Shown: one piece after another, positions 44,091 through 53,088 of the stretch
Position numbering within the stretch: position 1 is the stretch's first letter
Layout: each line of letters starts with the position of its first letter
Source: Shinella sp. PSBB067
GTDB taxonomy: Bacteria > Pseudomonadota > Alphaproteobacteria > Rhizobiales > Rhizobiaceae
Assembly (NCBI RefSeq): GCF_016839145.1
Contig: NZ_CP069303.1
Coordinates: forward strand, 1,488,001-1,552,000
Direction of reading: 5' to 3'
Length of the DNA stretch: 64,000 nucleotides
The notes under the pieces: model-generated
What the model was told of the DNA's origin: nothing
Databases searched by the model: none
What the model saw: only the letters and a program-made list of their open reading frames with translations
Position numbers and translations under genes: made by a program

Positions 44091-44169
44091 GTCATGGTCG
44101 GGCTCGACCCGACCATCCATCCACCGGCACGCCGCGAATGTGGATCCTCGGGTCAAGCCCGGGGATGAC
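44091..44169. repeat. Doublet of inverted short palindromes (REPIN-like)
   Basis: Palindrome A is ATGGTCGGG-CTCGA-CCCGACCAT (44094-44116) preceded by GTC. Palindrome B is ATCCTCGGG-TCAAG-CCCGGGGAT (44144-44166) followed by GAC. Both have nine-base arms and five-base loops and face each other in inverted orientation. Palindrome B differs from the units at 51048 and 51447 by only a few bases. The doublet lies after gcvP and may also act as its terminator. Confidence 0.7.
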
Positions 44170-50220: not shown

Positions 50221-50976
50221 TCAGGCGGCAGCACCGATGATGTCGGCATAGCCGTTGGCTTCCAGCTCGTGCGCCAGCGTCTTGTCGCCGGACTTGATGA
50301 CCTGGCCCTTGTAGAGGACGTGGACCGTATCCGGCACGATATAGTCGAGCAGGCGCTGGTAGTGCGTGATGACGACGACCGCGCGGTCCGGCGAGCGCAG
50401 CGCGTTGACACCGTCGGCGACGATCTTCAGCGCGTCGATGTCGAGGCCCGAATCGGTCTCGTCGAGGATGCACAGCTTCGGCTCCAGCAGCGACATCTGC
50501 AGGATCTCGGCACGCTTCTTCTCGCCGCCGGAGAAGCCGACATTGAGCGGGCGGCGCAGCATTTCCGGCGCGATCTTGAGTTCGGCGGAAGCTTCCTTGA
50601 CGCGGCGCATGAAGTCCGGCGTCGTCAGCTCGGCCTCGCCGCGCGCCTTGCGCTGCTCGTTCATCGCGACCTTGAGGAACTGCATGGTGGCGACGCCCGG
50701 GATTTCGACCGGGTACTGGAAGGCGAGGAAGATGCCCTTGGCGGCGCGCTCGGCCGGGTCGAGCTCCAGGATGCTCTCGCCGTTATAGAGGATGTCGCCC
50801 TCGGTGACCTCGTAGTCCTCGCGGCCGGAGAGGATATAGGAGAGCGTCGACTTGCCGGAGCCGTTCGGCCCCATGATGGCGGCGACTTCGCCGGCCTTCA
50901 CGGTGAGGTTCAGGCCGCGGATGATCTCGGTGCCGTCTTCGGCGATGCGGGCGTGCAGGTTCTTGATTTCAAGCAT
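50221..50976 (-). CDS. sufC: Fe-S assembly ATPase SufC
   Basis: 251 residues of an ABC-type ATPase. Walker A is GPNGSGKST, the signature is SGGEKKRAEILQ and Walker B with catalytic Glu-like segment is LCILDETDSGLDID; these are the classical SufC forms. SufC hydrolyses ATP to drive cluster assembly on SufB-SufD and is cytosolic, without membrane partners. A GIY-YIG gene and inverted repeats lie between it and sufB, where most operons have direct adjacency. Confidence 0.97.
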   Translation of the reverse strand: MLEIKNLHARIAEDGTEIIRGLNLTVKAGEVAAIMGPNGSGKSTLSYILSGREDYEVTEGDILYNGESILELDPAERAAKGIFLAFQYPVEIPGVATMQFLKVAMNEQRKARGEAELTTPDFMRRVKEASAELKIAPEMLRRPLNVGFSGGEKKRAEILQMSLLEPKLCILDETDSGLDIDALKIVADGVNALRSPDRAVVVITHYQRLLDYIVPDTVHVLYKGQVIKSGDKTLAHELEANGYADIIGAAA

Positions 50977-51047
50977 TGCGTTGTTCCTGTTCCAAGAAGC
51001 GGGTTTGTGTACCGCTCAATCGGCCGTTCTTGCGCCGGCCTCTAATC

Positions 51048-51075
51048 CGTCATCCTCGGGCTTGTCCCGAGGATC
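51048..51075. repeat. Left 28-bp inverted repeat flanking the GIY-YIG gene
   Basis: CGTCATCCTCGGG-CTTGT-CCCGAGGATC is the exact reverse complement of 51447-51474. It is itself a palindrome with nine-base arms ATCCTCGGG/CCCGAGGAT. It lies eight bases beyond the stop of the GIY-YIG gene. Confidence 0.88.
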
Positions 51076-51082
51076 CAAGCCT

Positions 51083-51424
51083 TCAATTGTAATCCTCTAC
51101 CTGCCTTGAATTCGCATGAGGCCGGTAGGCATTCTCGATTTCATCAATGTGCTCATAAAGGTCCATCCAAGTTGGATTGAGCTCCTCGATAAGCTTGATT
51201 TTCCATTCTCGCAGGTAGCGCTTCAAAGACTTTTCCCGCTGTATCGCCAGAACGATGTTCGGATGGGTTTCGAGCCAAACAAGGTTTTTTGCCTTATACC
51301 GCTCCGTAAACCCCTTCTGAACTTCATTGCGGTGCTCCCATGCTCGCCCTTGCAAATCGCTGGTGGCGCCAGTGTAGATCACACCTCGCGGCTTGTCGGA
51401 CATCATATAGACGAAACCGCTCAT
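51083..51424 (-). CDS. GIY-YIG nuclease (URI-type, COG2827-like)
   Basis: 113 residues from the ATG at 51424 (MSGFVYMMSDKPRGVIYTGA). The GIY-like FVYMMSD and YIG-like IYTGATSDL motifs bracket the active-site region. The conserved Arg is in RAWEHRNEV, and the later EKSLKRYLREWKIKLIEELNPTWMDLY is the hallmark helix and tail of the stand-alone URI-type subfamily. This group is abundant in alphaproteobacteria, with no settled role. Here it sits within the suf operon between sufB and sufC and is enclosed by perfect 28-bp inverted repeats, so it looks like an inserted unit rather than a suf gene. Confidence 0.87.
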   Translation of the reverse strand: MSGFVYMMSDKPRGVIYTGATSDLQGRAWEHRNEVQKGFTERYKAKNLVWLETHPNIVLAIQREKSLKRYLREWKIKLIEELNPTWMDLYEHIDEIENAYRPHANSRQVEDYN

Positions 51425-51446
51425 ACCGATCCCCGGGACGACAGCA

Positions 51447-51474
51447 GATCCTCGGGACAAGCCCGAGGATGACG
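51447..51474. repeat. Right 28-bp inverted repeat flanking the GIY-YIG gene
   Basis: GATCCTCGGG-ACAAG-CCCGAGGATGACG is the exact reverse complement of 51048-51075. It lies between the sufB stop (51481) and the GIY-YIG start (51424). A shorter CCCCGGG palindrome at 51431-51437 sits next to it. Confidence 0.88.
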
Positions 51475-51480
51475 AAAAGA

Positions 51481-52950
51481 CTATCCCACGCTTCCTTCGA
51501 GCGAGATGCCGATCAGCTTCTGCGCCTCGACGGCGAATTCCATCGGCAGTTCCTGGATGACTTCCTTGACGAAGCCGTTGACGATCAGCGCGATCGCCGC
51601 TTCCGTCGGGATGCCGCGCTGCAGGCAGTAGAACAGCTGGTCTTCGGAAATCTTCGAGGTGGTCGCCTCGTGCTCGAACTGGGCGGTCGCGTTCTTCGCC
51701 TCGATATAGGGCACGGTATGCGCACCGCACTTGTCGCCGATCAGCAGCGAGTCGCACTGGGTGAAGTTGCGCGCGTTCTCCGCCTTGCGGTGGGCCGAGA
51801 CCTGGCCGCGATAGGTGTTGTTGGAGAAGCCGGCGGAAATGCCCTTGGAGACGATGCGGCTCGACGTGTTCTTGCCGAGATGGATCATCTTGGTGCCGCT
51901 GTCGATCTGCTGGTGGCCGTTGGAAACGGCGATCGAGTAGAACTCGCCGCGCGAACCGTCGCCGCGCAGGATGCAGGACGGATATTTCCAGGTGATGGCC
52001 GAGCCGGTCTCGACCTGCGTCCAGGAGATCTTCGAGTTCTTGCCGCGGCAATCGCCGCGCTTCGTCACGAAGTTGTAGATGCCGCCCTTGCCTTCCTTGT
52101 CGCCCGGATACCAGTTCTGGACGGTGGAATACTTGATCTCGGCATCGTCCAGCGCGACGAGCTCGACCACGGCGGCGTGAAGCTGGTTCTCGTCACGCTG
52201 CGGCGCGGTGCAGCCTTCGAGATAGGAGACATAGGCCCCCTCTTCCGCGATGATCAGCGTGCGCTCGAACTGGCCGGTGTTCTTCTCGTTGATGCGGAAA
52301 TAGGTCGACAGTTCCATCGGGCAACGAACGCCCTTCGGCACGAAGACGAAGGAACCGTCGGTGAAGACCGCGGTATTGAGCGTCGCATAGAAGTTGTCGG
52401 TCGCCGGCACCACGGTGCCGAGATACTTCTTCACGAGATCAGGATGCTCGCGGATGGCCTCGGAGATCGACATGAAGATCACGCCGGCCTTCTTCAGCTC
52501 TTCCTTGAAGGTCGTGACGACCGAGACCGAATCGAAGACGGCGTCGACGGCGATCTTGGATTTTTCGACGCCGGCGAGGATTTCCTGCTCGCGCAGCGGA
52601 ATGCCGAGCTTCTCGTAGGTCCGCAGCAGCTCCGGGTCGACCTCGTCGAGCGACTTCGGGCCGCTCTGGTTCTTCGGAGCTGCATAGTAATAAAGGTCGT
52701 TGAAGTCGATCTTGGGATAGTCGACGCGCGCCCAGGTGGGCTCTTCCATGGTCAGCCAGCGGCGATAGGCCTCAAGGCGCCATTCGAGCATCCATTCGGG
52801 CTCGCTCTTCTTGGCCGAGATGAAACGGATGATGTCCTCGGACAGGCCTTTCGGCGCCTTGTCCATCTCGATCTTCGTCTCGAAGCCGTATTTGTACTGG
52901 TCGACGTCGATCTGACGGACCTGATCGATCGTTTCCTGCACCGCAGGCAT
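51481..52950 (-). CDS. sufB: Fe-S assembly scaffold protein SufB
   Basis: 489 residues from the ATG at 52950, with GGAG upstream. SufB is the main scaffold that receives sulphur and iron with SufC and SufD. Conserved segments include [20 protein letters not shown] and [39 protein letters not shown]. Also present is [50 protein letters not shown]. The Cys in TQCDSLL corresponds to a cluster-assembly site in the family. Its stop is followed directly by the inverted repeat and the GIY-YIG gene. Confidence 0.97.
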
Positions 52951-53088
52951 ATCGTTCTCCAATCTTGCCGGAGACAAGGTCCGGCAGCTTGTTAACGTGT
53001 GGCGGGTCTACCGCCGGTTATGTAAGCGCCAAAGGCGGCTTTTCCCACCTTTTGGCAAGCAAAAACTCGCGTTTCCGCAAGATTCCGC

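Follow-up and report, generated by a model that had tools for sequence, protein, structure and literature searches.

REPs bearing a CGTC tag are the closest described relatives of the repeats considered here. They are found mainly in Alphaproteobacteria, where they occur in all orders of the class (PMC3733652). In the available portion of the survey that defined them, the REPs of types CGTC-1 to CGTC-4 'apparently lack a dedicated transposase' and the association given for them in its Table 1 is '-' (Di Nocera et al. 2013; PMC3733652). For the neisserial dRS3, nearly 700 copies are quoted in the meningococcus (PMC10745880). A second described system is the REPtron, in which a REP is combined with the gene of a TnpA-REP protein or RAYT. 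The RAYTs belong to the Y1_Tnp family.

In Shinella sp. PSBB067, a GIY-YIG nuclease gene lies between two inverted CGTC REPs at positions 51048-51474 of the window, i.e. the whole 64,000-nucleotide stretch of DNA that was analysed. This segment is probably a compact mobile unit composed of the two REPs and this one gene, with the nuclease as resident partner of the CGTC REPs. As to what is observed, the pairing is widespread in the class to which the window belongs and beyond it, the arms have been conserved jointly with the gene and the type of flank matches the type of nuclease. Units occupy different sites, a given site may have or lack one, and internally deleted copies still retain the REPs.

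A nuclease gene between two CGTC REPs

The features of the locus are collected in Table 1. The two REPs bordering the unit are exact reverse complements over 28 bp and the identity ends there, not one base further. Each consists of CGTC, ATCCTCGGG, CTTGT, CCCGAGGAT and a final C, so that arms of 9 bases enclose a loop of 5 bases and the CGTC stays unpaired. The 113-codon nuclease gene is intact and is the sole gene between them; the gene-bearing unit is a REPIN layout with a gene in its middle. The initial annotation had described the ends as exact reverse complements forming hairpins with nine-base arms, the only enclosed gene as a URI-type GIY-YIG nuclease and the unit as separating sufB from sufC. 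All of this is borne out by direct comparison of the ends, by the pairing ATCCTCGGG-CTTGT-CCCGAGGAT, by the PF01541 match of the 113-residue protein and by the position of both suf genes outside the REPs.

Table 1. Features of the unit, its neighbours and a gene-free doublet in the window
Feature	Position	Strand	Remarks
REPIN, gene-free doublet	44091..44169		REP 44091-44117 (+) and REP 44143-44169 (-), tags outward
sufC	50221..50976	-	neighbour outside the REP pair
REP, CGTC-type	51048..51075	+	3' side of the nuclease gene, 7 bp from the stop codon, tag outward
GIY-YIG (URI-type) nuclease gene, 113 aa	51083..51424	-	PF01541 E 3.6e-11
REP, CGTC-type	51447..51474	-	5' side of the nuclease gene, 22 bp from the start codon, tag outward
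sufB	51481..52977	-	neighbour outside the REP pair

The protein has the GIY-YIG domain with the Y, Y, R, E and N expected of the superfamily: Y6, Y17, R27, E64 and N83, which we take to be the catalytic residues of the domain, lie in columns that are invariant in 22 relatives. The nearest solved structures by sequence are of the UPF0213 type (1zg2, E 1.3e-7; 1ywl, E 6e-4), and the AlphaFold model of the nuclease has a mean pLDDT of 60.6. A search of NCBIfam returned a single match, to a group I intron endonuclease, below the cut-off of that family. The genome holds one other GIY-YIG match, presumably uvrC.

The REP family of the Shinella genome

The 26-mer core of the REP occurs at 85 places in the 5.77-Mb genome (at most 3 mismatches) and the reversed control at 0, while adjacent REPs less than 130 bp apart form 22 pairs with 0.16 expected; a chance origin of the repeats is rejected on both counts. 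In 21 of the 22 close pairs a plus copy is followed by a minus copy, with the tags outward and a spacing of 52-60 bp. Both flanking units of the nuclease carry an unpaired CGTC at one end and, as described for CGTC-tagged REPs, an 8-9-bp stem that starts with AT and a loop of 4-5 nt, in a dispersed family of mostly head-to-head dimers (PMC3733652). Judged by its sequence, the window repeat is a member of the CGTC-tagged REPs, a known type. As to the CCA-like 3' tail of this type, one window unit is followed by CA and the other by TG; across nuclease clades, tails are mostly TCTG or TCTA in the clade of the 113-residue protein and TCCA in some others.

An undescribed repeat-dispersal pair had been proposed from the first inspection. 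The pairing with a GIY-YIG gene stands, and the repeat itself was already known as a CGTC-tagged REP in the published survey (PMC3733652). This very nuclease may not have spread all 85 copies, since the exact 26-mer core is present in just 4 of the 85, two of these being the flanks of the nuclease, and most other copies are variants.

The gene-free doublet had been assigned to the same family with the same inverted layout, correctly so: its CGTC tags face outward and its two arms differ from each other. It shares the layout of the 21 plus/minus pairs and is not counted among them because its left REP is too diverged. In that left REP, stem letters have changed on both sides (GGTCGGG...CCCGACC) and the hairpin is kept by compensating changes.

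The sufB-sufC junction in related genomes

Relatives of the nuclease gene were gathered from 80 named loci, 30 loci from 199 genomes of the family, 29 new ones from 240 class-wide genomes, 26 new ones from 299 phylum-wide genomes and 40 further stretches, mostly from multi-copy genomes. The gene was re-located in every locus with one profile, and duplicates and fragments were removed. The 205 loci, with 17 not full length and 16 duplicates dropped, gave 174 unique full-length genes, the window gene not included.

Of the 80 named loci, 67 have the gene at the sufB-sufC junction and are hence orthologous, so that the stronger evidence comes from loci elsewhere. Among these 67, an inverted REP stands 7-10 bp behind the stop codon in 36 and a REP 18-25 bp ahead of the start codon in 47, both spacings being found in 32. 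In the genus of the window, one genome out of 21 has the nuclease unit at this junction and the other 20 have no such gene there, which provides the empty site in close relatives that the initial annotation had proposed to look for. In a second genus (g30, apparently Rhizobium, since L113 has the same sequence around the gene as L033 from Rhizobium ecuadorense), 60 genomes were searched, 59 had sufC and 30 junctions were read: six hold an intact unit, two hold remnants (L344, and L343, which retains both REPs but has lost internal sequence) and 22 hold none. The gene is thus not fixed between sufB and sufC without repeats; where it is common there, repeats are present. A role in iron-sulphur metabolism is not favoured, given its presence at the suf site in 1/21 and 6/30 and the bracketed copies elsewhere.

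The junction (50977-51480 in the window; L173-L193 and L323-L352 in relatives) takes different small inserts in different genomes, among them a short ORF beginning MDPVNLTYYAVVCGG, a longer ORF with LFRPVGLEEL and other small ORFs. In some relatives it is bare, with a gap of 67-77 bp. Azospirillum (L388) and Brevundimonas (L110) likewise carry a GIY-YIG gene at this junction. In the window, the final 12 bases of sufB are AGCGTGGGATAG, unlike those of all 20 other genomes of the genus, which read TCGGTCGGCTGA in 18, TCGGTCGGTTGA in L190 and AGCGTTGGCTGA in L189; the odd 3' end looks as if it had been recombined in together with the nuclease unit.

Other sites, empty sites and deleted copies

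In another genus of the family, designated here g74, a unit some 510 bp long, whose inverted ends are imperfect, occupies several places in several species, and some genomes have more than one copy. Between non-orthologous sites, copies agree at 88-89% (L209 compared with L222 and L226). The most similar pair within one genome (L209 and L221) agrees at 493 of 510 positions (96.7%); the flanks of this pair are also partly alike, at 75.5% and 64.7%, and it may stem from a larger duplication. At one g74 site the unit is present in L304, L264 and L273, there is no GIY-YIG gene in L290, L263, L268 and L270, and L262 holds a palindrome with two outer ends and no gene. At a second site, three species carry gene-less doublets (L297, L298 and L299). 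In the L299 doublet, one end resembles the element for 70 bp (94%) and the other for 105 bp (82%), subterminal motif included; L297 and L298 share mainly the terminal REP with the element, at 57-66% in the 47 bp inside the REP. The strict REPIN pattern was found at three places in nine genomes of this genus, one being gene-less (L308, the same as L299).

Three side observations concern the same genus. In one nuclease unit (L217/L231), the right REP is interrupted by roughly 1 kb of foreign DNA, which seems to be an insertion sequence. On the outer side of the left REP, about 10 further bases (GCGACCTATC or a close variant) recur at the different sites L209, L221 and L222, so the unit may in fact end beyond the REP, or these bases may reflect a target preference. 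A second palindromic repeat (AATCTCCCCC...GGGGGAGAT...) is often found beside the nuclease unit or in its place (L228, L293, L305 and L306).

Comparable differences occur elsewhere. Eleven Sphingobium megaplasmid records, several of them near-identical, have a junction of fnrL and a response-regulator gene, and seven carry the unit in it. Among the other four, L395 and, in decayed form, L396 hold the palindrome with two outer ends, and L397 and L398 hold other sequence, in L398 with a different palindrome. In Sinorhizobium meliloti Ak57, a complete unit stands beside a copy in which both REPs survive but the gene is reduced to its end (L391); at the site of the Ak57 unit, Sinorhizobium sp. K101 has a two-ended palindrome and a decayed REP. 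Internally deleted copies that keep their REPs are represented by L343, L391 and L299. Under a strict rule, double-ended palindromes give 12 entries in the loci collected, i.e. 6 sites with both strands counted and L395 included, compared with 538 ordinary and 127 other hairpins. No clean target-site duplication was seen in any filled and unfilled pair compared, their flanks being too diverged. Related units at several sites, together with presence and absence at one site, are what is expected of a transposable element.

Flank type and nuclease type

Outside the suf junction, the loci L078, L084, L091 and L098 carry REPs, in L078 both in the same orientation; in L098 a variant REP with a CTAGGG stem is altered alike on both sides. 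Other clades of the nuclease bear other REPs. For 111 elements away from the suf site, protein identity and flank similarity were correlated with same-genome pairs omitted (Mantel r 0.49, reached in 0 of 2000 permutations), a correlation that is partly shared descent and is measured on 150-bp flanks containing more than the REP. Alike flanks rose from 4.7% through 13.3, 31.1 and 43.6% to 68.2% of different-genome pairs in the classes of 40-50, 50-60, 60-70, 70-80 and above 80% protein identity. For pairs within one genome the figures are 1/15, 3/34 and 1/12 in the three classes from 40 to 70% (5/61 together) and 5/7 above 80%. Over all classes, alike flanks go with the relatedness of the nucleases and not with the sharing of a genome. 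Counted against the mobile unit is that at 40-50% identity same-genome pairs (6.7%) and different-genome pairs (4.7%) do not differ. Where a genome holds several elements, the two arms of an element were each other's best match within that genome in 3/3 (G109), 3/5 (G131), 3/3 (G365), 6/10 (G321) and 2/4 cases (G289), and in 1/3 for G606, whose copies are all of one type.

The presence and absence of the gene can also be understood as homing. A free-standing homing endonuclease would target the REP and its gene would be copied by repair into empty REPs or REPINs; the nuclease would then invade existing REPs and not make them. The GIY-YIG fold is a classic one among homing endonucleases, and at sites where relatives carry the unit, gene-free loci in three taxa hold the two-outer-ended palindrome (L262; L395 with the decayed L396; L399). 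However, the arms of different nucleases in one genome differ and match each other within their own element, as would most simply follow from arms moving along with their gene, and some gene-free sites (L290, L397) show no CGTC REP by eye. The double-ended palindromes are moreover rare and equally explained as deletions between arms. The window gene itself is intergenic. Overall, homing is a serious though rather unlikely account: arms that go with the gene would favour transposition of the unit, while two-ended palindromes would allow homing.

Conservation and distribution of the nuclease gene

Selection was examined on 59 intact genes of 113 codons out of 65 named loci, mostly at suf sites. 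The median dN/dS is 0.08 (774 of 1711 pairs with measurable dS) and synonymous sites are close to saturation, with a median pS of 0.75. The REPs are far more similar than the sequence next to them: pairwise identity is 0.988 upstream and 0.987 downstream (42 of the 59 genes on each side, with a standard REP at 60 bp or less), compared with 0.35 for the 16 bp preceding the start codon and 0.42 for fourfold sites, a contrast that stays very large even though the REP figures are inflated by the choice of loci with a recognisable REP. The arms would thus be either selected together with the nuclease or continually homogenised.

Purifying selection would also be expected of a domesticated repair nuclease that resolves or protects REP hairpins, the adjacent REPs having a regulatory role as terminators or in mRNA stability. 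In Caulobacter, COG2827 genes were proposed as possible repair nucleases, one of them with an SOS box, in the text available (PMC1839093). The distribution of the gene does not fit well with such a housekeeping function. At the thresholds set, it is found in 96/199 genomes of the family, 81/240 class-wide and 82/299 phylum-wide; one genome has 11 matches, 10 of them strong, decayed copies also exist and the sites are many. Domestication is therefore improbable as the main explanation, and the mobile unit remains the preferred reading.

REPs around related nuclease genes

The flanks were sufficient for 171 of the 174 genes in a test for GTCA-tagged hairpins within 250 bp and for 173 in a motif-free test. 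A tagged hairpin is present on either side of 142/171 genes, on both sides of 99, upstream of 123 and downstream of 118; random placements with identical geometry in these loci, a control not matched for intergenic position, gave 94/1834 (5.1%) on either side, 3 (0.2%) on both, 49 upstream and 48 downstream. By set, an either-side hairpin is found for 69/72 named genes, 16/18 family genes and 26/29 class genes, the class set having one gene per genome; it is found for 17/21 genes of the phylum set and 14/31 of the multi-copy set. Relaxing the rule to GTC[AG] and loops of at most 60 raises the count to 149/171 genes versus 163/1902 random placements. In the motif-free test, a local alignment of the 200 bp upstream with the reverse complement of the 200 bp downstream, inverted arms scored at least 16 for 121/173 genes and for 0/163 flanks taken 700 bp further out. 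A flanking hairpin is absent in 29/171 genes under the strict rule and in 22/171 under the looser one, and the motif-free score is below 16 in 52/173. On visual inspection, many genes missed by the strict rule do have a palindrome at each end, of variant sequence or with a long loop; no clear REP pair was seen by eye at L139, L234 and L390, and L206 has a palindrome on one side only.

The same test on small ParE toxin genes from the same family of bacteria found a hairpin flank in 1/28 (Fisher p 1e-16 against 142/171), and on Y1 transposase genes in 2/9, with hairpins unlike CGTC REPs; loci at contig ends were left out (2/30 ParE, 3/12 Y1). Plain clustering of REPs near small genes is rejected on the ParE comparison. 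GIY-YIG genes are hence flanked by inverted repeats more often than others, relative to both random placements and ParE genes, as the initial annotation had anticipated; palindromes lacking any association with these genes were not what was found.

A related proposal is that REPs are moved by something else and gather round small dispensable genes, the nuclease being a bystander. REPs are indeed intergenic and often close to the ends of ORFs, according to the part of the survey at hand (PMC3733652), and the random placements above leave this position uncontrolled. Yet ParE genes, which are small and accessory too, scarcely have such flanks, the spacings recur with both kept in about half of the suf loci, near-invariant arms stand beside a saturated spacer and the flank type goes with the nuclease type. 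A bystander role is accordingly quite improbable.

REP number across genomes

In the 199 family genomes, the nuclease was scored present when the best E was 1e-18 or lower (87 genomes), nine weaker matches being scored absent. The window-type REP has a median of 9 copies in genomes with the nuclease, 56/87 having at least 5, and a median of 0 in genomes without it, 24/112 having at least 5. Among genera with both states, REPs are more numerous with the nuclease in 29 and fewer in 7, with 2 ties. After subtraction of up to 4 copies per gene, at least 5 REPs remain in 37/87 versus 24/112 genomes (p 0.002). Repeat number thus tracks nuclease presence, as had been suggested for examination, also within genera, and the contrast is weaker once flank copies are subtracted. 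Ten of the 34 REP-rich genomes (at least 20 copies) have no nuclease at the threshold used. The original claim of a REPIN-like family whose resident nuclease is a GIY-YIG enzyme and not a RAYT-type Y1 transposase is supported by the flanking and by REP number.

Mobilisation of CGTC REPs in trans by RAYT or Y1 transposases, with the GIY-YIG gene carried along, is very improbable and was rejected: TnpA-REP proteins do act on REPs, described in the available text as GTAG REPs (PMC8266576), but the Y1_Tnp profile (PF01797) has no match in the window's genome despite 93 copies of the window-type REP pattern, Y1_Tnp is present in 22/199 genomes with no relation to REP number (at least 5 REPs in 8/22 with it and 72/177 without, p 0.82), and no CGTC REP was seen at the nine Y1 genes examined.

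Occurrence beyond the class

A tblastn search of a plasmid collection gave 31 records with homologues, and in 9 of the 12 that were read the gene is bracketed by or embedded in such repeats. These are N. gonorrhoeae, with the gene within dRS3-type CGTCATTCCCGC..., Planktothrix, with the gene, read by eye, within TGTCATTCTGAG repeats, Novosphingobium, Azospirillum (again between sufB and sufC), Sphingobium, S. meliloti, Rhizobium CIAT894 and two Shinella. In A. caviae one REP lies upstream and another overlaps the 3' end of the gene, Photobacterium has one REP only, 173 bp away, and no clear REP pair was seen by eye in the record of R. tumorigenes. On the Planktothrix plasmid (L384), the homologue and its TGTCATTCTGAG repeats have an MmeI-type restriction enzyme on one side and the DISARM gene drmA on the other. 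Three records labelled as plasmids (NZ_CP119140, NZ_AP026896 and CP090106; 2.2, 4.9 and 3.7 Mb) are probably chromosomes, judging by size.

Proposed mechanism and comparison with known systems

In the mechanism that we propose for the mobile unit, the nuclease would recognise the REP hairpins of its unit and would act in trans on REPIN hairpins as well, cutting the extruded or single-stranded form at the hairpin or beside it. GIY-YIG enzymes cleave DNA by hydrolysis and are not known to remain joined to it, so that strand transfer would probably be left to host repair or recombination, which would complete it. REPINs would be non-autonomous, MITE-like derivatives of the nuclease unit. On balance, we lean towards a wider proposal, in which CGTC REPs (rhizobial, sphingomonad, neisserial dRS3 and perhaps TGTCATTCTGAG) are the hairpin ends of an unrecognised class of bacterial mobile elements with a GIY-YIG nuclease as sole enzyme. 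Each type of nuclease would have its cognate REP, REPINs would be the non-autonomous members, and movement would proceed by cutting and host repair with no transesterifying transposase.

How CGTC REPs spread was left open in the 2013 survey, to judge from its accessible portion (PMC3733652), and the resident GIY-YIG nuclease offers a concrete, testable partner. If the proposal is true, REP and REPIN populations arose with at least two unrelated enzymes. It would also give a role to the widespread small 'GIY-YIG nuclease family proteins', for which DNA repair was earlier suggested in the text at hand (PMC1839093). In addition, many natural nuclease-hairpin pairs become available for recognition studies. 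A search of the open full text in PMC, a scope that leaves out preprints and most subscription papers, gave no link of GIY-YIG genes to REPs among the matches listed.

The repeats themselves compare directly with the CGTC REPs, the neisserial dRS3 included, which have the same tag, the same 8-9-bp stem with AT first, the same 4-5-nt loop and the same head-to-head dimers (PMC3733652). The difference lies in the gene, as the available portion of the survey gives no associated transposase gene for them (PMC3733652). The nuclease is, by sequence alone, likened to the UPF0213-type GIY-YIG proteins, remote relatives that include the closest solved structures. To our knowledge, it shares with the free-standing GIY-YIG homing endonucleases of the I-TevI and Seg type the fold, the catalytic residues and the residence in a small mobile gene. 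In contrast with these, the window gene is in no intron or intein and is bracketed by palindromes dispersed over the genome. The REPtron comes closest in organization, since it also has a small nuclease gene between inverted tagged palindromes and a similar palindrome dispersed in the genome. In the window too, the gene is bordered by inverted palindromes that would be cognate, as the co-variation of flank and nuclease suggests. Its enzyme is however a Y1 HUH protein, whereas the unrelated GIY-YIG fold is found here and PF01797 is not matched in the genome; its tag is GTAG and the tag here is CGTC. No evidence of tnpAREP mobility is given in the part of the literature available (PMC8266576), whereas the gene-bearing unit described here looks mobile and can be multi-copy. 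The pair found in the window works like a REPtron without being one, and its enzyme is a member of the GIY-YIG superfamily.
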